DNA of 64,000 nucleotides, taken from a virus. The DNA is taken from the IMG/VR virus record IMGVR_UViG_3300034284_000578, positions 1 to 64,000 of that record; one strand, 5' to 3'. The notes below the pieces were generated by a model. It made no database searches, was not told the DNA's origin, and worked only from the letters and a program-made list of their open reading frames with translations. The first letter of the stretch is position 1. Each line of letters starts with the position of its first letter. Shown piece after piece: positions 6,930-56,509 of this stretch. Made by a program: the position numbers and the translations under genes.

Positions 6930-7991
6930 ATGAAAGTTGAAGATGATGTGAAGTTGGATTTTGCTGATGTACTAATTCGACCAAAACGAAGTGAACTAAA
7001 CAGTCGTAAAGAAGTTTCACTTTCACGCAGATTTGATTTTGACAGTTCTGGAATGCATGTTGCTTGGGATGGAATTCCTATTGCAGCGGCAAATATGAGT
7101 GGTATTGGTACTTTTTCTGTTGCAGAAAAACTATCTCAACACAGAATGTTAACTTGCATTCATAAGTTTTACACAGAAGAAGAGTGGATGAAAAATTACG
7201 ACAAACAACTTGTAAGCAATCCAGACCTTGATTGCTTTGTTTATAGTATGGGAATGGGTTCAAATTCTTACGAAGAAATCGTTAAAGCAACCAATATTCT
7301 CGATTATTGCTCTGCTGTAAAATTTATTTGTATTGATGTTGCAAACGGTTACACGCAAAAGTTTGTAGAATATGTTTCAACTATTCGTAAAATTTTTCCC
7401 GGTAAGATTTTAATTGCTGGCAATGTAGTAACCCGTGAAATGACAGAAGCATTAATTCTTGCTGGTGCAAATATCGTAAAGGTAGGAATTGGTCCTGGCT
7501 CAGTTTGCACTACTCGCAAGGTTGCTGGTGTTGGATATCCCCAACTGTCGGCAATTATGGAATGTGCCGATGCCGCACATGGTCTTGGTGGGCATATCAT
7601 GGCTGATGGTGGTTGCATATGCCCAGGTGATGTTGCAAAGGCATTTGGTGCCGGTGGCGATTTCGTGATGCTTGGTGGTATGTTTGCGGGCTCTGATGAA
7701 GCAGCACAACATGATGAATCTGGAAACAGAGTGTTTTACGGAATGTCATCAGAAACCGCAATGAACAAGTTTTCTGGCGGTGTAGCCACTTACCGAGCGT
7801 CAGAGGGTAAGACTATCAAGGTTAAGCAAACTGGTCCAATCGACAATACCGTTCAGGAAATTCTTGGTGGTGTTCGTTCGGCTTGCACCTATGTTGGCGC
7901 CAAGCGTCTGAAGGATCTGCCAAAGTGTACGACATTCGTTCGGGTAAACCGCCAAATCAATTCCGTATTTAATGGACAGGAAATTGCTTGA
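6930..7991 (+). CDS. guaC: GMP reductase
   Basis: A 353-residue (beta/alpha)8 enzyme of the IMP dehydrogenase/GMP reductase family. GMP reductase turns GMP into IMP and ammonia with NADPH. The catalytic cysteine is Cys193 in GPGSVCTTR. The phosphate-binding segment reads ADGGCICPGDVAKAFGAG, then GGDFVMLGGMFAG, which fits GuaC better than GuaB. The length matches GuaC and there is no CBS-domain insert as in GuaB. In a phage it may recycle host guanine nucleotides to balance the purine pool. This gene is uncommon in phages. Its stop codon overlaps the next promoter's -35 box. Confidence 0.9.
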   Translation: MKVEDDVKLDFADVLIRPKRSELNSRKEVSLSRRFDFDSSGMHVAWDGIPIAAANMSGIGTFSVAEKLSQHRMLTCIHKFYTEEEWMKNYDKQLVSNPDLDCFVYSMGMGSNSYEEIVKATNILDYCSAVKFICIDVANGYTQKFVEYVSTIRKIFPGKILIAGNVVTREMTEALILAGANIVKVGIGPGSVCTTRKVAGVGYPQLSAIMECADAAHGLGGHIMADGGCICPGDVAKAFGAGGDFVMLGGMFAGSDEAAQHDESGNRVFYGMSSETAMNKFSGGVATYRASEGKTIKVKQTGPIDNTVQEILGGVRSACTYVGAKRLKDLPKCTTFVRVNRQINSVFNGQEIA

Positions 7992-13509: not shown

Positions 13510-13774
13510 CGAAGAAAAGATTAAGCAACTTGAAGAAGAAAATAAGAAACTTAGAGAAACTATGTTCCGCGCATGGGCTATCCTCGTAGACTATGATGGA
13601 TACTACAGCGAAACGCTAAAAAAGGGCGATGTGCATGGATTGGCTTCTATTGTAAAAGAAGCAGTGCATATTCTAAATACTCCTCGCCGCGACGCACTTG
13701 ATAGACTGGCACAATTAGATGAAGAACTTGGTCTATATGACGACTTTATAAGCGATCAAAAGGAAATGGACTAA
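13502..13774 (+). CDS. 90-residue protein with short coiled coil
   Basis: I take the ATG at 13502 (AAAGGGTAAGG upstream) over 13481. The N-terminus is a Glu/Lys coiled coil (KIKQLEEENKKLRETM). The rest is helical. It overlaps the preceding gene by 8 bases and is followed by the tmRNA. Function unknown. Confidence 0.65.
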   Translation: MSNEEKIKQLEEENKKLRETMFRAWAILVDYDGYYSETLKKGDVHGLASIVKEAVHILNTPRRDALDRLAQLDEELGLYDDFISDQKEMD

Positions 13775-13916
13775 ATAATCTTTGGTATTGTTGATATTGG
13801 ATTGAAATGCGAACAACACAGGGGTTCGATTCCCCTCGGCTCCATTAGCCTAACCGAAATAGATTCTGCAAGTCTATTAGAGATGGCGAGTAAAGTCCTC
13901 TTTGCAGGGGGCAATT

Positions 13917-13936
13917 CCTGAAGCCCGGGCTTCAGG
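13917..13936 (+). other. Perfect palindrome in the tmRNA intervening segment
   Basis: CCTGAAGCCCGGGCTTCAGG is a perfect 20-base palindrome lying just before the 5' end of the coding piece. It probably folds as a processing hairpin in the precursor. Confidence 0.6.
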
Positions 13937-14012
13937 TATTTAAGGGGCTGAACTGGCTTCGATTGGCGCAGAGTAATGAAGAAGGAGATACCCGACACGG
14001 GTAACAAGTGTC

Positions 14013-14066
14013 GTAAATAAACAGTTGCAAAAATTGATTGCCGCACCAATGGCAATGGCTGCTTGA
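14013..14066 (+). other. tmRNA tag reading frame
   Basis: Aligned to the usual GTC-GCA-AAC resume site, the codons read GTA AAT AAA and on to a TGA at 14064. The encoded tag is VNKQLQKLIAAPMAMAA (after the alanine carried by the tmRNA itself). It ends in Ala-Ala, as degradation tags do. The Val resume codon and the Gln/Lys-rich start are unusual. Confidence 0.75.
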
Positions 14067-14105
14067 AGCAGTGGGGTCTGATCCACCCGCGACTGAACGG
14101 ATCAC

Positions 14106-14133
14106 GGTTGTTGGGGAGAAATCCTCAACAACC
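14106..14133 (+). promoter_or_regulatory. Hairpin at the 3' side of the tmRNA coding piece
   Basis: GGTTGTTGGGGA (14106-14117) pairs with TCCTCAACAACC (14122-14133) with one mismatch. No T-run follows, so it is a structural or processing element rather than a terminator. Confidence 0.55.
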
Positions 14134-45838: not shown

Positions 45839-48800
45839 ATGCCAAATATTACTACATCAATAACTATTCAGCCCACAATAAGCAGTTTGGATTCTTTAAT
45901 AAATAGTCCGAATAATGCATATAATCAAGCATTGGGATCTTTGCCGGATGTTCCGCCACCCCCACCACCATCAACAGATGTGGTTATTGAAACCGATACA
46001 ACAACAGATTTCGTATTCACTACAGACACAACAACAGATTTCGTATTCACTACAGACACAACAACAGATTTCGTATTCACTACAGACACAACAACAGATT
46101 TCGTATTCACTACAGACACAACAACAGATGTTGTTGTTCCTCCATTGGATACTGATGTATCCGCATTAGACTACACTGTTTGGGCAGCAGCATGGCAACG
46201 TGATGTAAATGTAAATGCACATTCTGTTGTTCCTATGATTTGGGTTGATCCTATGGGTGGATGGGGAGGACCAGGAACTACAGATGTATTTACAGATGAT
46301 GTGGTAAGTTCAACAAAATATAATCAATTTAAAACAACACTATTAAATGTACCAGAGGGAAGAAGAGTAATACAACCAACATTTTGGGCAGCAGTTCCAC
46401 CAAATTTAAATTGGTCACCTCTTACTTTTATTGATTATTATACTGCTTTGGATGGAACTACTTTTGATGGAAGAAATATTTCTTGGACACCATGGCAAGA
46501 AAATATTATTGATGATGCAAAAACAAGTTTTAATCAATTTTTGGGTAGATGTAAAGCGGATGGTTTAACTTTTAATTATATAACTGATAACACTTATTAT
46601 GGTGATGGTGGTGCCCCAAGTATATGGAATTTATCAAAACCACCTGTAAGTGATAGAGATGCATACAAGATATACGTTTCAACCACCGGAAATGATAATT
46701 GGACTGGTCTATTCCCATATACTACAGGAACAAATGGACCAGTAAAAACAATTAAAAAGGCATCTGAACTTGCTAGAAATTATACAGGCAATAAAAACGT
46801 TGAAATTCAAATTCGTCAAGGTACATATCGTATGCTTGGCACAGATGCAAATCCTATCTTTTACTTAAATGAATCGAATAGTGGTAAAGAAGGAAAGTAT
46901 ATAACTTATAGACCATATAAGAATGAAACAGTCGTTATAAGTGGTGCTGAGGAAATAAGCCACAGTGCATTTACTTTAGTCAACTCTTCAGATTCTAAGT
47001 GGAGCAGAATATCGGCAGAAGCAAGAGGAAATGTTTATGTTGCTGATATTTCTGGTTATGATATTGGGCCCGGAATTCCTTCCATGTGGAATGGTGGAAA
47101 TATGGGTGGTGATGTTGGTAATGTCCAAGATATGCCTGCTTTGCCTGAATTGATTTTCAATGGCAAAACAATGACTGTTGCTAGATGGCCAAATAAAACA
47201 TCACTCAATAGTAATGGATATACTTTTGGTGAATCTGCTGTAATTTCTTCTGTTGTCAGTAGTGGAACAAGCGGGGTGTGGTGTGTAGATCCAACTTATC
47301 TTGGAAGTAATGTCGATTTGTTAACAGATGGTCCGGCGGACGATGCAAGTTGTTATTGTGGTAGTGGTGCCCCACGTAATGAAAATTGCTTTCAAAATGC
47401 AACATTTACATATTCTTCAGATTATGATTCTGTTATTTCAACGTGGAGTAGTGCTGCAATAAATGATGGGATTTGGTTACACGGATTCTGGAGATGGGAT
47501 TGGGCCGATGAAGCATATAAAGTCGTATCCATTAATACTGGTTCTAGAACTATTACTGTAGCATCAAAGAAGTCACAATATGCTGTACAAAATTATTCAC
47601 TTTGCAATCCAACAACTGGAGCATTAGATTCAACAGGAACATATTTATCCAATCCAACACCAAGACGTTGGTTTGCTCTTAATATTTTAGAAGAATTGGA
47701 TACACCCGGTGAATATTACATCGATAGAGCCAACAAAAAGTTATATTTTTGGCCAACAGAAGCAATATCTGCTTCTTCAGAAATACGCATAACACACCGT
47801 GCAGTTGCTGGGCCCGGAGCAAAAGACGACGACGAGAATAGTTTTGAAGTTGGTTATCACCCAAACGGTTTCCCAGACAGAACATGTTCAAAGTGTTTCC
47901 CATATAAAGGTTGGGAGGACACCAATTATGGTTGGTATCAACCCGGCGGCGCTTTGCAATCAAGACATGTTTACAACAGCAAAAACACTTTAAAATCTCT
48001 ATTTAAATTATACAAAACAAAAAATATTATAATTGAGGGATTAACTTTCCGTGATAGTGCTGGTAGTGGAATTGAATTAAATCTATGCGAAAATGTAATT
48101 GTTCGCAAGTGCAAGATTTTTAACGTTAAAAAGGATGGAATAAATGCTATGGGTGGTAAAAATGTTACCATCGATAGTTGCACATTATATGATATTGGTA
48201 GAACTGCAATAATTAATACTGGCGGAAATAGACAAACTTTAGAACCAGCAAATAAATTGGTAACTAAATGTTCCATTAAACGATGGAATAGAAATAAGTA
48301 CAATTATGCTTCTGCTATAATTTTAAATGGCTGTGGCAACACTGCTTCTTATAATTTAATGTCTGATGGTAGTGCAGGTATACTGATTTATGGTGCAAAT
48401 CTAACTGTAGAATATAACCATTTACATAATTTGATTGGAGAAACGGATGATGCTGGAGGAATATATGCAGGCAGAAATACATCATTCATCAACAATGTAA
48501 TCAGATACAATTTCTTTAACAACGTAAAAACTAATCTTCCGGGTGGTTATTATTACAGCAATTCAACAGTTCCGAGTGGTTGTGTTACTGCTGAAAATAA
48601 AAATACAGCAGGAACACACGGTGTTTATTTTGACGATTTAATGTCAAATTGTTCCGTTATTGGAAACGTTTTTTATCAAATTGGTGGTGGTGAAGGATGT
48701 GCCGTATATTTTAATGGTGGTGTGAAAAACACTGTAAACAATAATCTTTTTATTGATTGTAATCGCGCATATGGTGCTGCGGTATCTACAAAAGGTTATT

Positions 48801-51800
48801 GGAATAATCATTTGAATGCTTCAAGAATAGCGATTGTTAATAATTTAAATTATCCTTGGTATGAAACTGGTGGACCGCTCGATTCAAATGGTAAAGAAAC
48901 AAACGTTAGTGGATATAGTCCATACACTTGGTATGGTTCTGGTAATGGAAATACTTCTTGGGCTAATAACTCTTTAGCGGGAATAATGCCTGTTGTTGAT
49001 ATAACTGCCCCAATATATCAACAAACATGCCCACAATTATCTCAAATGATTTCTGTAAATGCTTCAAAGGTTGCAACAATCGTTGAGGATGCTGCACAGT
49101 TTAAAAATAACACAAATAACAACGTAATAATTAATACTCCTTCGAATTCCGATAGGCTTGGAATTAACACCATTAGTGGTGAAACATGGTCGCAAGCAAT
49201 ATATGGAGGGTTTAATGTTGGTTCTGAATTAATAGAAGATACTAACACCGTTATTACTTTTGCTGAAAGAGCAAGTTTAAATTTCAAATTATCTGCTTCG
49301 GATTTGGCAACAATCAGAGCATCGTTGCCAACATTTGAAGATATTCCTTTTGAAAAAATACCAACATTATCTTATGTACCAGAATCTTATACTCAGCAAA
49401 CATATTCAAACTGTGCTGTAGATAATAGACATTACACTTGCGAAAGAGATTTTTCAGATCCAGATGCTTTGGAGGCCATAGTAACTGATAGTAGATTTAC
49501 AAGTACGGTAAATCCAGTAAATGGTAAAACGCTGTCGCAAGATTTTATGGATCGTTATAATGCTATTATTACTGAAACAAATGGCATGGATCGTTCCCTA
49601 TACACAAATCGAAGTTCCAGTTGGTATGTTTCACCAATAGCAACAGCATATAATGTACTATCTCCTAATTTTGGTTACATTGTAGATGTTGGTGAACCAT
49701 TTAGAATGCAACAGTTTCCGTGGTCCAATTCAAGTACAGATGCTGCAACTAGAGCATGGACTGGTGTGACTTTTGATTGGGGAATTTATTATAGAACCAC
49801 TTTCTTTAAGCAACCTCTTGCGAATAACGGTTATTCGAACGTCAAATATTCTATTGATTATTCTTATGCATTAAATGCCGAAGAAGCACAATATGTTCAA
49901 GATCAATATGGTGGTTGGCAAGGAGACATAAGAGAAGATTACCCAGACGCTTTGTATACTCCACCATTATATGGTGAATTGGAAACTGGAATGTTTAATC
50001 GTTACACTTATGCAATAAATCCAGAAAATGATGATCAAAAATATTTGATGGGATTTGTGTGGGAAAATCAAGATTTACCACAAGGTTATTTGAGATTTAC
50101 AAGTCCAATTTGGGTTGCATTCTTAAGAGATATGAAACTATTAAGAGGCATAATTAGATCAAATCCAAACGCTTGGCAAAAATTGACACCTTGGATACCA
50201 AGTCCAGATGGTGGTGATATATCTGGTTCTAGAATGAGATATTCTAGAAGTCAAGGAGAAACGGCATTACAATTCTGGAAAGAAATGATTTTCCATGCTT
50301 GCTTACATGGAACACAACATTTTAATTATTGGAATTCTGGAGCCACATCTACAGTTGGTACAACAAATACATTAGAGTTGCACAATATTTTAGAAGAATG
50401 GCGTCAACGAAGCGGAAATAGTAGAGCGCAACCAGTAACAAATAGTAGAATTGCTGTTAATTCTTCTGTTATTATTAGTGGCGGTAGATTGCTTAGTAGT
50501 AACAAGTATCTTTGGAGAGTAACGGCTAAACCATCATCTTCAGTAACACTTAGAGCATACGGCAATTCTCTTGACAGAACCGACATTCCACAAACAATAA
50601 CTTTAAATAATAACTCAAGAGGTGCTTGGCTTTTGACTGATAGTTCAGTTCCTCCAACTTATGTTCTTGATGAGGGTGGACAACAAGAAGATGTTGAATT
50701 GAAGTATATCACTTTGATGCGAGCAGATTATCATACTCAAATACACAGAGGTCGCGCCATATTTGGAGGCGCTTCTCACGACTATGGTAGTGGAATTGGA
50801 TTTGATCAAAATGGTAAATCTCTCTCGGCTCTTCAATACATTTATAACACAGGTATTACATGGTCAGCTCACTCAGTTGGTAATTTGAATTGGTATTATG
50901 CTGCAAATTATAGATTAGATTCTAATGGAAATGCCATACCTGTCGTAGTTCGGACATCTCCCACAACAACCGTAACTCACTGCAATAATGCATGTTATAG
51001 TAGTAGTGGTTGCTTCCAAGTACCAGGTATTCCTAGCATAATGTTTGTGAAATATATGTCCGAAACCGGCGAATGGGGAGCACCAATGCGTCCAAATGAT
51101 CCATTCCCAAATGGTGCTGGTGGTAGTTTTGAATTTGTAACGGTAAATGGTGTTGTGTTTACAAAACAACCAACAGATAGAGGAAAACCACTAGATTATA
51201 GTTTTACACATTATGGAAACAGCACCAATTCTTCTGGTATTCCTTATAGTTTCTGGGCAAGAACTCCAGCACAAAATGGAAGAAATGATTTGGCATATGA
51301 TTATACTTGGCAAGGAACAGTACAACTTAGACCTGGTCATGAACATGTCATTGACAGTAATAATTTAACAGTAAAATTACGTCAACCTAGCGATGGTGCT
51401 CATCCTAAAAATGAACCGGGAAATATATGGAAGTATAAAGGTTTCGTTTTTGCACCAATAAGACAAGATGATGGATGTGCTGATCATTTGTTTGTCGATC
51501 AATATAAAATGTTGTTAAACCTGTACAAAGCAGAGGAAGAATACAAATATTTTGTAATGAATTTGCCCACAGTACCTTCTTGCATTGTTCAAAGTGCAAC
51601 TTGGAAATCTTTAGTTGCAGAAGAATTTGTAAATGGTGTGTTTAAACCAAAAGAAATATTTGTAAACTATGAAGATGAATTAGTAGATCAAATTCGTTGT
51701 TTAAACATTACTGGCAGAACAGGTCCTAATAATTATGGTAGAATTAATAACCAACCACTAACCAATGAAATATGGGAAAGAATAGTTTCTTATATTAAAT

Positions 51801-54800
51801 TGACCAGAAAAATGAATTATCATATTAAATCGGTATTTGGACCACAAGTTAAAATATCGCACTATGATATGTTTAATTTACCATACTATCAGGAATGGAA
51901 ACAGGGTTGGTGGCCAGCAAAAGATGGTCTTATATGGTCGACGGATTATTACACGGATATAGATAATGGTTGTCCATTCTGTTCTGAATTGGACATAGAT
52001 TACCCAGGTGATGTTGCGTATGCTGCTTTACCTTTAGAACAAAAACTAGTTTTTATACGCAAAGCAGTCGAAGCATTACAGAGTAAAATATTTAAAATGG
52101 GTGCAGCGATTAGTAAAATGTGTCTATTTGAAAACGTAGAAGGACAACCAGATGTTCTTGACTTGAGACAAGAACTCTCAGAACTATTACCACAAATAGA
52201 TCCTAATTTGTTTATTATTGAAGGATTAAATCACTATCCAAATTCTGCACATGGTGAAATATGTAATAACGTTCACAAATATTATGCTGCAACTCCTAAT
52301 GGATTTAATGAAGCCGCAGATGTAAATTTCAAAAATAATTCAGAAATAAACAAAAGTAGACAACAATCCATACACCACAAAGAACAAGCCAGAGTTGGTA
52401 TGTTTAATAATCAACGATCTGGTAAATTGTATTCTTGGTTTGTTCAGGGAGTTTGTGGTTCTGATGTGGCGGAAGCCATGTATGAATATTACAATTCCAA
52501 TTTGAAAGATAATGCTGGATTTGTAAAATCTTGGACAGATACTAGCTTTGCTGCAACAGAAGTGTCTTCGTTCCCATCTACAGAAACAGATCCAAATCAT
52601 CTTGCTGGAGAAAGAATTTATAAAGTTAAATTTGCACCAAAAAATGCTTTAAGGAGAAGTTTTTTGAAACATATGCCATGGATTAACATGACAAATGATT
52701 TCTTAAATCGTTCTCAAATTGCAACAACAATCAAATATAAAGATGAGGTGATTTGGTCAGATAATAATATTTCCTCTGTTATAACTACAAATTTAAACGG
52801 AATAGCATCAGAACCAAAAGAATATCGCACTGAGGAGTATAACTTAAGACCATGTGCTCAAGGTGAATCACCAGTTTGTGTTTCAAATTGTCAACCAGGC
52901 GAAACACCAACGTTCAGTTGTAGAGATATAGTAGCAAATCCATATATAAAACCAAAACTGATAGAAGATAATTTTAAACTAAGAAACAATAATTTTGATA
53001 CATTTAGTTGTAGTTCAGGAACTGCGGTAGTAGGGACCAATAAATCACCAAATTGTGTATCTTATTGCCATGTTGATCCTGTTGTTCACGGTGCAGGTTC
53101 TACATCATATCCAACAACTAGTCTACTCAAAGCAAGAAGACACATTTATGGATTAGCGGTAGAGTATGCCGGTTATGATGATATGGTAGCAATACCTCTT
53201 GAAGATTTTCCAAATGACATATATTGGGGTGGTTATCTGGGTGCAAATGGGGGCTTTGATCCATTTATCACCACACCTCCTGCAACCGTATCGGCGGCTC
53301 AAGCACTTGATCGACCGGGTTGGCCTCATATTAGAGGAAGTGAAACTGCAAAACGAGCACAAGGATTAGGATTAATTCTTGCTGCAAGAAAAGATTATTC
53401 AATTTACAAATACATTAAAAACCCAACACAAACAAATGTTAGAGATTGGCCACAACCAGCGGCAAACTTTGATGTGGACAGAAGACCAGGTATTGCTGCT
53501 ACTATTACTGTATCTGGTGGACCAGGTGCTGAAGTAGTAATGGGCTATAGTGGTACAAACACAAATAGAGCAGAATTCTTTAAGAAGTGTTTGGATGGAA
53601 GTGGAAATCCAATACCAAATGTTGGTTTCCAAAAACTTATTGATAACTATTTTACATGGAACTATGATAAGGGTGTTCGTAGATTTATGATTTGGACACC
53701 AGGCGGAACTGTATACCACACATATCCAAATGGTGAACGGCCAGCGGTATATACCTCTGCCATCACAAGTTCAATGGAACGTAGAATTTATGAAATTTAT
53801 CAAGTCGCACAAGATGGTGTAACTACAGTAATTAATAAAATTGTAAATCCTGCCGAAGCATGTTGGAGAAATATAACAACTCCAGTTGATGTATTCCCAA
53901 CAGATGGACAAGTTAATACTCTTCTAATACCTGCAACTGTAGCAGAAGCAGAAAGTTATCCTCTTTGCTCTGATACTGATTGGAATGGAACTTCACCTTG
54001 CTTTGATCCTGAAGGTAGAAAAAATGAAGTATTGACTTGTATGGAGCAATGGATTGATTCTCATCCAGACGCAGATGTTGGTGTTTATATGGGTTATACA
54101 ATACCAACCTTAAATGGTGAACCCGAAACTGGAACACCAACAATTATTGGTGATGCTGGTGGTGGTGGTTGGTTGCAAAATGCAGGAGATGCTGTTTGTT
54201 GTGAACCTGAGTGTTCTTTCAGTTTACTTTCAGATGCAAGTAATGGACTTCCTGCTAATAATCAAATCAGAAAACTGTTAGTAAATGGTAATACAATATA
54301 TTCTGTAAATGCTGGTTCGGGTGGATTGTCTATATCCACTGATGGTGGTGCAACATATGTGACCAGAACAACAGCCAATGGTCTTGGAAGTAATACGATT
54401 AGTGATATTTTTGTTGTGGGTAATAATGTATATGCTGCAACTAACGGCGGATTATCTATCTCTACTGATGGTGGTCAAACTTTTATTAACAAAAGTGGTG
54501 GTTCTTCGGGTTTGGGGGGCACCAATTCAGCACATGTTGCTAGGATTAGTGGAGTTTTTGTAAAAAATAATACAATTTATGCCGCAGTTGCGGGAGTTTC
54601 TGGTCCAACAGGAGGACAAACCGGGCTAGGTATTTCAACGGATGGTGGTGCTACTTTTACAATGCGAAATAGGACTAACAGCGGTTTAGGTGGTGGTAGC
54701 AGCGGTTCAGCTTGTAATACAGTATTTGTTGACACCGATAACAAAATTTATGTTGGAACACAGACCGGAGGATTGGGGATTTCAACCAATGGTGGCACCA

Positions 54801-56509
54801 CCTTTACAATGAATGATTTTGGTGTCCAACTAGTTGACGTTCAACGTATAAAACAACTTAATAATAAACTTTATGTTGTTGCAAATAGAATTGGTATTTC
54901 TACTGATGGTGGACAAACATTTACCATTATTACACAAACAACTGCTCCGGGAATAATTCCTGGTTCTAATTTTATAGATTTGACACCAGTAACGAATGAT
55001 ATATTTTATACTAGTACGGGAACTGGTTTATACAAAACTATTAATAATGGACAATCTTTTACTAAAATTGATTTTGGTTACAATGGCTTATCACCAACAT
55101 TAAATAGTTCCACAATAGAAATACACAACAATCTACTTTATATTGCTTCGTCGGCCGGTGGAGGAATAAGAGTAGGAACTAATTGTTTGCCAGCACCTTC
55201 TATTAGAGGATGGCAAATTCCAAATCCAGAAAATAATCCGGCACATGCTGCATTCTTACAATCCGAATTACAACCTTGGATTGATATTGGAATTAATTTC
55301 CTTGGAATGGATGTTGGAGTTGGTATGTTTAATTACCAATATGGTGGTGCATTGTCGTTTGGAGCAAATCCAGTATCGAGAGAACCAGTTGGTGATTATA
55401 AACAATGGTTACAAACAACATTCCCAACCCTAAAAACAATCATTAATGAAGCAATACAACCCGACTGGAAAGCACCAGTATTGGATGAATTTAATAAACC
55501 AGTTGTTGGAAGAACTTATCCAAGAAAAACTCTGTTAAAGACAAATCGTGCAACAGAAGTATGTAAAGGTGTATTGGTTTCTTCTGAAACTTTGGGTGGA
55601 GAGCCTTGGAACACAGTATATACTGACGATTGCTGGCATAACAAAGGAAGAGAAAGATTTAGAAAACTAGATCCTGCTGGAAAAGATTACCGTACAGCGC
55701 AAGATCCTAATAATTTTGTTTATGCGCCAGGTGCATACCAATATTCTGCTTATATGATTCTTCTTAATGGTAATTTGAATTCATCAGAATGGAATATAGG
55801 ATTACACAGTAATGCAAATACCATACAAGGTTGGGGTGGCTTAGATCCAAATAAAATGTGGTGTTGGTATAGAAAAAATACAGAAATTGGTTTATTTGTT
55901 GAAACCTTTTATCTGTTAAGTAAAACAATGAGAGATGCATATAGATTACAAAATCCAAATGAAGTGGATGCCGCTGGAAATAACACATATAATAATCTTT
56001 GGCAATTCACTCCAGCATGGCATGATAAAGGAATTTCTACACCTACTCCCACACCAAGTGGTGTTGCGTCTTGGGATGGTAGAAATATATTGAGAGATAG
56101 TGATACCTACAACAAAGTAAGAAATGAAATGTTTGTCGAAGTTAAAAATTACATAGAAAGAGGATATGTTTATTGGACTTCTCTCGGTAAAGATGCATTC
56201 CAAGTGCTTAAAGATGTACATTCTGATCTATTGAGTTATGTTGCCGGATTTGAATCCGACGACAATATCTTCCCAGAAGACGAAATTACAGAAAATCGTG
56301 CTACAGTTTTGTCGGACGATGTAAAAAATAATATAATAATTTCTACAGTATCTACAAAAGATAATGAAACCCTGTTGGCAACAGTAATAAATAATGAGGA
56401 AATAATTACAACAGATTTTGGTACAGATACTAGTCCGTTTGGAGATCCAGAATTAGTGGATTTTGAACCCAGCCCAGGGGAATTTGGTGGTGGTGGATTT
56501 GGACCATAA
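45839..56509 (+). CDS. Giant 3556-residue fibre/adhesin with beta-helix and Asp-box domains
   Basis: One unbroken 10.7-kb frame. Residues 55-94 are four copies of TTDFVFTTDT. A glycosidase-like stretch (about 106-260; WAAAWQRDVN) follows. Residues about 274-1010 form a right-handed beta-helix (IYVSTTGNDNWTG; IIIEGLTFRDSAGSGIELN; VTIDSCTLYDI), as in pectate-lyase-like enzymes. Later regions are Trp/Tyr-rich and include a Cys-rich linker (about 2337-2407). Residues about 2794-3114 hold six Asp-box repeats (STDGGxTF), a beta-propeller mark. No signal peptide. It lies within the baseplate block, so it is probably a virion adhesin that binds or degrades host surface sugars. Catalytic residues are not identified. 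Confidence 0.75.
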   Translation: MPNITTSITIQPTISSLDSLINSPNNAYNQALGSLPDVPPPPPPSTDVVIETDTTTDFVFTTDTTTDFVFTTDTTTDFVFTTDTTTDFVFTTDTTTDVVVPPLDTDVSALDYTVWAAAWQRDVNVNAHSVVPMIWVDPMGGWGGPGTTDVFTDDVVSSTKYNQFKTTLLNVPEGRRVIQPTFWAAVPPNLNWSPLTFIDYYTALDGTTFDGRNISWTPWQENIIDDAKTSFNQFLGRCKADGLTFNYITDNTYYGDGGAPSIWNLSKPPVSDRDAYKIYVSTTGNDNWTGLFPYTTGTNGPVKTIKKASELARNYTGNKNVEIQIRQGTYRMLGTDANPIFYLNESNSGKEGKYITYRPYKNETVVISGAEEISHSAFTLVNSSDSKWSRISAEARGNVYVADISGYDIGPGIPSMWNGGNMGGDVGNVQDMPALPELIFNGKTMTVARWPNKTSLNSNGYTFGESAVISSVVSSGTSGVWCVDPTYLGSNVDLLTDGPADDASCYCGSGAPRNENCFQNATFTYSSDYDSVISTWSSAAINDGIWLHGFWRWDWADEAYKVVSINTGSRTITVASKKSQYAVQNYSLCNPTTGALDSTGTYLSNPTPRRWFALNILEELDTPGEYYIDRANKKLYFWPTEAISASSEIRITHRAVAGPGAKDDDENSFEVGYHPNGFPDRTCSKCFPYKGWEDTNYGWYQPGGALQSRHVYNSKNTLKSLFKLYKTKNIIIEGLTFRDSAGSGIELNLCENVIVRKCKIFNVKKDGINAMGGKNVTIDSCTLYDIGRTAIINTGGNRQTLEPANKLVTKCSIKRWNRNKYNYASAIILNGCGNTASYNLMSDGSAGILIYGANLTVEYNHLHNLIGETDDAGGIYAGRNTSFINNVIRYNFFNNVKTNLPGGYYYSNSTVPSGCVTAENKNTAGTHGVYFDDLMSNCSVIGNVFYQIGGGEGCAVYFNGGVKNTVNNNLFIDCNRAYGAAVSTKGYWNNHLNASRIAIVNNLNYPWYETGGPLDSNGKETNVSGYSPYTWYGSGNGNTSWANNSLAGIMPVVDITAPIYQQTCPQLSQMISVNASKVATIVEDAAQFKNNTNNNVIINTPSNSDRLGINTISGETWSQAIYGGFNVGSELIEDTNTVITFAERASLNFKLSASDLATIRASLPTFEDIPFEKIPTLSYVPESYTQQTYSNCAVDNRHYTCERDFSDPDALEAIVTDSRFTSTVNPVNGKTLSQDFMDRYNAIITETNGMDRSLYTNRSSSWYVSPIATAYNVLSPNFGYIVDVGEPFRMQQFPWSNSSTDAATRAWTGVTFDWGIYYRTTFFKQPLANNGYSNVKYSIDYSYALNAEEAQYVQDQYGGWQGDIREDYPDALYTPPLYGELETGMFNRYTYAINPENDDQKYLMGFVWENQDLPQGYLRFTSPIWVAFLRDMKLLRGIIRSNPNAWQKLTPWIPSPDGGDISGSRMRYSRSQGETALQFWKEMIFHACLHGTQHFNYWNSGATSTVGTTNTLELHNILEEWRQRSGNSRAQPVTNSRIAVNSSVIISGGRLLSSNKYLWRVTAKPSSSVTLRAYGNSLDRTDIPQTITLNNNSRGAWLLTDSSVPPTYVLDEGGQQEDVELKYITLMRADYHTQIHRGRAIFGGASHDYGSGIGFDQNGKSLSALQYIYNTGITWSAHSVGNLNWYYAANYRLDSNGNAIPVVVRTSPTTTVTHCNNACYSSSGCFQVPGIPSIMFVKYMSETGEWGAPMRPNDPFPNGAGGSFEFVTVNGVVFTKQPTDRGKPLDYSFTHYGNSTNSSGIPYSFWARTPAQNGRNDLAYDYTWQGTVQLRPGHEHVIDSNNLTVKLRQPSDGAHPKNEPGNIWKYKGFVFAPIRQDDGCADHLFVDQYKMLLNLYKAEEEYKYFVMNLPTVPSCIVQSATWKSLVAEEFVNGVFKPKEIFVNYEDELVDQIRCLNITGRTGPNNYGRINNQPLTNEIWERIVSYIKLTRKMNYHIKSVFGPQVKISHYDMFNLPYYQEWKQGWWPAKDGLIWSTDYYTDIDNGCPFCSELDIDYPGDVAYAALPLEQKLVFIRKAVEALQSKIFKMGAAISKMCLFENVEGQPDVLDLRQELSELLPQIDPNLFIIEGLNHYPNSAHGEICNNVHKYYAATPNGFNEAADVNFKNNSEINKSRQQSIHHKEQARVGMFNNQRSGKLYSWFVQGVCGSDVAEAMYEYYNSNLKDNAGFVKSWTDTSFAATEVSSFPSTETDPNHLAGERIYKVKFAPKNALRRSFLKHMPWINMTNDFLNRSQIATTIKYKDEVIWSDNNISSVITTNLNGIASEPKEYRTEEYNLRPCAQGESPVCVSNCQPGETPTFSCRDIVANPYIKPKLIEDNFKLRNNNFDTFSCSSGTAVVGTNKSPNCVSYCHVDPVVHGAGSTSYPTTSLLKARRHIYGLAVEYAGYDDMVAIPLEDFPNDIYWGGYLGANGGFDPFITTPPATVSAAQALDRPGWPHIRGSETAKRAQGLGLILAARKDYSIYKYIKNPTQTNVRDWPQPAANFDVDRRPGIAATITVSGGPGAEVVMGYSGTNTNRAEFFKKCLDGSGNPIPNVGFQKLIDNYFTWNYDKGVRRFMIWTPGGTVYHTYPNGERPAVYTSAITSSMERRIYEIYQVAQDGVTTVINKIVNPAEACWRNITTPVDVFPTDGQVNTLLIPATVAEAESYPLCSDTDWNGTSPCFDPEGRKNEVLTCMEQWIDSHPDADVGVYMGYTIPTLNGEPETGTPTIIGDAGGGGWLQNAGDAVCCEPECSFSLLSDASNGLPANNQIRKLLVNGNTIYSVNAGSGGLSISTDGGATYVTRTTANGLGSNTISDIFVVGNNVYAATNGGLSISTDGGQTFINKSGGSSGLGGTNSAHVARISGVFVKNNTIYAAVAGVSGPTGGQTGLGISTDGGATFTMRNRTNSGLGGGSSGSACNTVFVDTDNKIYVGTQTGGLGISTNGGTTFTMNDFGVQLVDVQRIKQLNNKLYVVANRIGISTDGGQTFTIITQTTAPGIIPGSNFIDLTPVTNDIFYTSTGTGLYKTINNGQSFTKIDFGYNGLSPTLNSSTIEIHNNLLYIASSAGGGIRVGTNCLPAPSIRGWQIPNPENNPAHAAFLQSELQPWIDIGINFLGMDVGVGMFNYQYGGALSFGANPVSREPVGDYKQWLQTTFPTLKTIINEAIQPDWKAPVLDEFNKPVVGRTYPRKTLLKTNRATEVCKGVLVSSETLGGEPWNTVYTDDCWHNKGRERFRKLDPAGKDYRTAQDPNNFVYAPGAYQYSAYMILLNGNLNSSEWNIGLHSNANTIQGWGGLDPNKMWCWYRKNTEIGLFVETFYLLSKTMRDAYRLQNPNEVDAAGNNTYNNLWQFTPAWHDKGISTPTPTPSGVASWDGRNILRDSDTYNKVRNEMFVEVKNYIERGYVYWTSLGKDAFQVLKDVHSDLLSYVAGFESDDNIFPEDEITENRATVLSDDVKNNIIISTVSTKDNETLLATVINNEEIITTDFGTDTSPFGDPELVDFEPSPGEFGGGGFGP
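46001..46120 (+). repeat. Four perfect 30-base tandem repeats in the fibre gene
   Basis: Four exact copies at 46001, 46031, 46061 and 46091 encode the 10-residue unit TTDFVFTTDT; a partial copy follows. Exactness at DNA level points to recent expansion. Confidence 0.95.

Follow-up and report, generated by a model that had tools for sequence, protein, structure and literature searches.

The window analysed here, a stretch of 64,000 nucleotides, comprises bases 1-64000 of a 108,576-nt IMG/VR contig. This virus record contains T4-like tail and baseplate genes, and 14 tRNA genes span 8.3 to 16.0 kb of the window. Amid the baseplate and tail genes lies an open reading frame of 3556 codons (45839-56509). 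A gene at 6930-7991, immediately preceding the tRNA cluster, matches a PHROGs family annotated as "dehydrogenase" (phrog_9582, E 1e-107), and its product reads like an IMP dehydrogenase/GMP reductase. No SmpB gene was found in the record, so any tmRNA encoded there must use the SmpB of the host.

A preliminary description of this DNA had placed a phage-encoded circularly permuted tmRNA at 13780-14133. In agreement with this proposal, the merged permuted-tmRNA model of Rfam (RF04321) matched positions 13784-14066 of the plus strand over its full length, scoring 70.9 bits (whole-window E 1.3e-11) against a gathering cut-off of 47 bits. This score is lower than those of bacterial permuted tmRNAs (about 115-166 bits). 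The beta_tmRNA model (RF01850, cut-off 84 bits) scored below threshold both in the window (53 bits) and in 13 relatives (best 61.5 bits). The alpha_tmRNA model (RF01849, cut-off 50 bits) did not appear for the window in a list that omits weaker overlapping matches of the same clan, and reached 14.2 bits in one relative. Among tmRNA finders, ARAGORN missed this copy at its default setting and called it as a permuted tmRNA when the score was relaxed. Together with the T4-like tail genes and the covariation described below, the model match upholds the assignment to a phage-encoded permuted tmRNA, and the record can be taken as that of a phage whose tmRNA gene is circularly permuted and presumably two-piece. 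The locus was therefore correctly placed, but its ends shift: the gene starts near 13784 and ends at about 14105, where the second pseudoknot closes, or perhaps at 14132 if the last hairpin is included.

Pattern scans of IMG/VR yielded about 50 contigs with a homologous gene, from which 48 distinct precursors were aligned (mean column identity 82%). Default ARAGORN named 34 of these 48 as permuted tmRNAs and missed the other 14, so phage tmRNA surveys based on its default settings undercount. The 5' part of the upstream, or acceptor, piece (13784-13819) matches RF04321 and contains the 3' strands of P2, namely GGUAU (13784-13788), UGCG (13808-13811) and CAA (13814-13816). It is followed by the T-arm AGGGG-UUCGAUU-CCCCU (13820-13836), paired in 100% of the 48 sequences with double changes at 3/5 pairs, and by the 3' acceptor strand CGGCUCC with the discriminator A (13837-13844), after which CCA is not encoded. 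The partner of this strand, GGGGCUG (13944-13950), lies downstream, as first proposed, and is expected to form the 5' end of the coding piece at a putative RNase P site. The two acceptor strands thus flank a spacer, and their 7/7 pairs are kept in 48/48 sequences, with compensatory types at pair 4 (G-C, C-G, A-U), pair 5 (C-G, U-A) and pair 7 (G-C, A-U); the G3-U pair is invariant (48/48). The region from 13951 to 13992 holds the D-loop signature CUGGCUUCGA and the 5' strands of P2 (UUG 13963-13965, CGCA 13967-13970 and AUACC 13988-13992), as placed by RF04321 and by pairing across the 48 sequences. GGUAU pairs with AUACC and UGCG with CGCA; the P2 helices are 98-100% paired in the 48 precursors, with double changes at 7/9 pairs.

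Immediately downstream, pairing across the relatives defines pseudoknot 1 (PK1, 13993-14028). Its stem 1 (CGACAC/GUGUCG, 13993-13998/14008-14013) covaries at 3/6 pairs, and its stem 2 (GUAAC/GUUGC, 14001-14005/14024-14028) is paired in 99.6% of cells. The G3-U pair, D-loop signature, P2 helix and tag-adjoining pseudoknot of the preliminary description are thus all present. Taken together, P2, the T-arm and PK1 were paired in 99.1% of cells of the 48 precursors, with double changes at 13/25 pairs. The covariation observed was not attained by any shuffled control, and pairing dropped to 34-54% in slid controls. One of the controls of the pair counts (control a) overstates significance, and sequence counts overstate the number of independent events, since the relatives are fairly close. 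Nevertheless, a single ancestor cannot account for positions at which several distinct pair types occur.

The probable tag frame (GCC GCA CCA AUG GCA AUG GCU GCU UGA, 14040-14066) encodes AAPMAMAA followed by a stop and has the features of a tmRNA tag: a short frame, a hydrophobic and alanine-rich degron end and a stop codon. The corresponding 8-codon frame, beginning at GCC or GCU 10-11 nt after PK1, is open in 48/48 sequences, and all of them end in AA and a stop. The encoded tags include AAPMAMAA, ANELAMAA, ANQLAMAA, AEELAIAA, ANYMAVAA and others, and for many relatives ARAGORN also puts the tag start at GCC/GCU. Two loci (L026 and L027) share their spacer and differ in their tag. Translation could instead resume at GCA 14027, where the context CAGUU|GCA resembles the resume site of E. 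coli and where relatives such as L009 give an in-frame ANIKAAPMRMAA followed by a stop; the tmRNA of this clade would then be a frameshifting one or a tag-less ribosome releaser. We consider this unlikely, because GUUGC forms the 3' side of stem 2 in PK1, and because about half of the relatives are out of frame from GCA, compared with none from GCC/GCU. The relatives differ by one base in length just after GUUGCAAA, and the extra base falls in the pre-tag spacer, where a length of 10 or 11 nt is harmless. A programmed frameshift, considered at first because about half of the relatives carry an additional base after GCA, was dropped for the same two reasons, the role of GUUGC in PK1 and the frame open in all relatives. 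Resumption at GCC, giving the tag AAPMAMAA, is thus the probable reading.

Three prime of the tag, a second pseudoknot (PK2, 14071-14104) was read by eye, without a pair-by-pair count. Its stem 1 is GUGGG/CCCGC (14071-14075/14086-14090) and its stem 2 is UGAUCC/GGAUCA (14079-14084/14099-14104); by eye, stem 2 appears re-paired in several sequence types of the relatives (GGUUUU/AAAACC, GGUC/GACC and UGAUCC/GGAUCA). A hairpin with the stem GUUGUUG...CAACAAC (14107-14132), conserved in part of the relatives, probably sits at the 3' terminus of the gene.

The preliminary description did not mention that the segment between the two tmRNA halves is itself structured. On the comparative evidence, the 99 nt of this intervening segment (IVS, 13845-13943) make up a conserved RNA domain, built of two hairpins whose loops can kiss, a conserved unpaired strand and, in some forms, a third hairpin. 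Of its core columns, 34/68 are invariant in the 48 sequences, which is comparable to the mature parts. The domain contains UUAGCCUAA and a first hairpin (13858-13878; stem 13858-13863/13873-13878, loop CUGCAA at 13866-13871) with double changes at 5/6 aligned pairs. A nearly invariant strand, GGCGAnnnAAGU (13885-13896), leads to a second hairpin (13897-13911; CCUC/GGGG, loop UUGCAG at 13902-13907), whose closing pair covaries. The optional third hairpin (13917-13936) changes on both sides of its stem among relatives and is absent from the 71-73 nt forms, the IVS ranging from 71 to 99 nt in length. The two hairpin loops can kiss through 6 bp in the window, and a C-G to U-A change preserves one kissing pair in L010 and, separately, in the L111/L114/L116 group. 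Seven IVS pairs show double changes, with a covariation score of 0.176 compared with 0.093 in shuffled and at most 0.068 in slid controls. The fold of the IVS by itself surpasses shuffled sequence by a small margin (z -1.5), and some of its stems are invariant and hence yield no covariation evidence. Two elements are unproven: the inner pair of the kissing helix (A-A/U), which is frequently disrupted, and a possible GCC/GGC helix, which is invariant. An antisense open reading frame over the region (13771-14055, minus strand) was set aside, since the RNA-level covariation and the changes in spacer length argue against coding.

Rfam searches with the window and 13 relatives, extended to E 10, found no family matching the IVS, ribozyme and riboswitch models included. 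Every non-coding occurrence in the pattern scans fell within the IVS of a tmRNA gene, and none was seen outside one. Another 16 pattern matches in genome contigs look like chance, none of them lying behind a T-arm. No IVS match was found among the isolated phages of the collection, and a model of the IVS domain (R1) did not match two bacterial tmRNA loci. A bacterial source was considered and set aside after R1 found no match in 490 sampled genomes (250 of Burkholderiales and 240 of Alphaproteobacteria), a search that used strict filters and for which these genomes included no positive control. Kinship to a 3' pseudoknot of alphaproteobacterial tmRNAs (AAGUCC...GCGGGG) was treated as coincidence, as it occurred in 1/21 parsed sequences. 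Twister, twister-sister, HDV-like and pistol ribozymes, to which the IVS bears some resemblance, were likewise rejected for lack of an Rfam match, and the order of pairs in the IVS does not fit their folds.

The preliminary description knew of no permuted phage tmRNA, and on this point the literature contradicts it. Of 133 unique phage tmRNAs in a screen of 18,146 phage genomes, 53 were reported to be two-piece, phage Melnitz being one of the carriers (PMC9004378, 2022), and RF04321 has been described together with 79 bacteriophage tmRNA sequences (PMC11915505). In our own Rfam searches, the permuted order was confirmed in Melnitz (a T4-like Methylophilales phage of the Kyanoviridae, MZ577097; RF04321, 113 bits) and in the isolated Stenotrophomonas phage Marzo (MZ326868), whose annotated tmRNA scored 119 bits as permuted. 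The same model also detected an unannotated permuted tmRNA in the isolated Caulobacter phage CcrColossus (JX100810.1, near 132.4 kb; L118:476-769; 83.8 bits). Permuted phage tmRNAs are thus already known, and the conserved structured spacer appears to be the new element. A literature search for such a spacer in permuted tmRNAs found none, most subscription papers being outside its reach, and we know of no report of one with a structure conserved across lineages.

The window tmRNA shares the permuted order, tRNA-like domain, P2, PK1 and tag with the RF04321 and RF01850 families, and differs from them in its long structured IVS and 8-codon tag. The spacers of permuted tmRNAs are normally short and discarded. 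Alphaproteobacterial two-piece tmRNAs have the same gene order and tRNA-like features as the window, but in 21 parsed sequences the IVS was simple and without shared structure, with a length of 8-56 nt (median 30) and an encoded CCA. The Melnitz tmRNA, in contrast to that of the window, is of the alpha type (106.7 bits) and encodes CCA. Read by eye, a simple inverted repeat (UAAACACUU/AAGUGUUUA) delimits its spacer of about 145 nt (L119:46074-46218), in which inspection revealed no IVS motif sequence. A short reading frame begins inside this spacer. Just downstream of the Melnitz tmRNA gene lies a glutamine riboswitch, and it was on account of this position that we rejected a similar riboswitch as the identity of the IVS. 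Marzo differs from the window in having no match to R1 and a longer tag (VAANDDSYTVRIAA and a stop). In another phage permuted tmRNA (IMGVR_UViG_3300027906_000087), a complete tRNA-Asn gene lies inside the IVS (L004:1412-1486).

With regard to the spread of the gene, the best match of the window gp6 among isolated phages was Melnitz gp6 (35% identity), and gp6 relatives were found in 6 of 15 tested carriers with 29-35% identity, often over part of the protein. The tmRNA and spacer of the carriers are, by column, about 82% identical. This difference suggests, tentatively given that the contigs are partial, that a cassette of tmRNA and IVS moves among phages. Furthermore, the variants of tag, spacer and pseudoknots seem to have been reassorted among the contigs of the 48 loci, which hints at intragenic recombination.

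Two-piece tmRNAs are known to be made by RNase P and 3' processing, to receive CCA and alanine, and to act with SmpB in tagging proteins for ClpXP-type proteases. From the gene order, RNA fold, covariation, open tag frame and conserved spacer, we consider it highly probable that an intact permuted tmRNA gene of the phage occupies 13784 to about 14105 and works along the following lines. The locus would be transcribed together with the surrounding tRNA cluster. Host RNase Z or exonucleases would cut after A13844, with CCA added afterwards, and host RNase P would cut before G13944, releasing the 99-nt spacer. The two pieces, held together by the acceptor stem and P2, would be charged with alanine through G3-U, bind host SmpB and, during infection, rescue ribosomes that have stalled on broken mRNAs, the addition of (A)AAPMAMAA leading to proteolysis. 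Phages that destroy host mRNA might gain from such extra rescue capacity. As for the IVS, its most likely role is to help fold or cut the precursor. Its restriction, within what was scanned, to the position between the two halves favours this role, and the constant position, the preserved structure and the lack of a known family lend it moderate support.

Alternatively, the IVS could be a regulatory or independent small RNA, such as a riboswitch-like sensor, a sponge or a decoy, released through tmRNA processing. Cuts of the RNase P and RNase Z type would indeed free a compact RNA of 71-99 nt, and the riboswitch of Melnitz indicates that structured elements do accompany phage tmRNAs, but the lack of a riboswitch match and the confinement of the IVS to tmRNA genes in the scans leave this a possible, less probable option. 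An undescribed class of self-cleaving ribozyme, separating the halves without host enzymes, seems distinctly improbable. Such a ribozyme would suit a small conserved domain that has a pseudoknot-type fold and invariant single-stranded stretches (UUAGCCUAA, GGCGA, AAGUCC) and sits between two RNAs in need of separation. Nevertheless, no ribozyme family matched, short or simple spacers seem to suffice for other permuted tmRNAs, and exact mature ends need cuts of the RNase P/RNase Z type, since an RNA cleaving itself within the IVS would retain tails. Finally, the gene might be a decayed copy, or an inhibitory decoy that titrates SmpB. The record's lack of SmpB could speak for this, as could the inhibition described for mycobacteriophage DS6A and its tRNA-like domain (PMC4131195). 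This reading is very hard to reconcile with a tag frame, two pseudoknots and pairs that have all been maintained, through compensatory changes, across the 48 sequences, and DS6A carries little beyond the tRNA-like domain.

A bolder and more doubtful interpretation than a folding or processing role is that phages have built a functional RNA of a new class into the spacer, be it a self-cleaving ribozyme, a ligand sensor or a small RNA that is released, and that the tmRNA-IVS cassette moves between distant phages. If so, ribosome rescue in the infected cell would be controlled or independent of host processing. The IVS is in any case a small, directly testable RNA, and the maintenance of a pseudoknotted spacer in dozens of phages suggests that production of the two-piece tmRNA may be a controlled step during infection.
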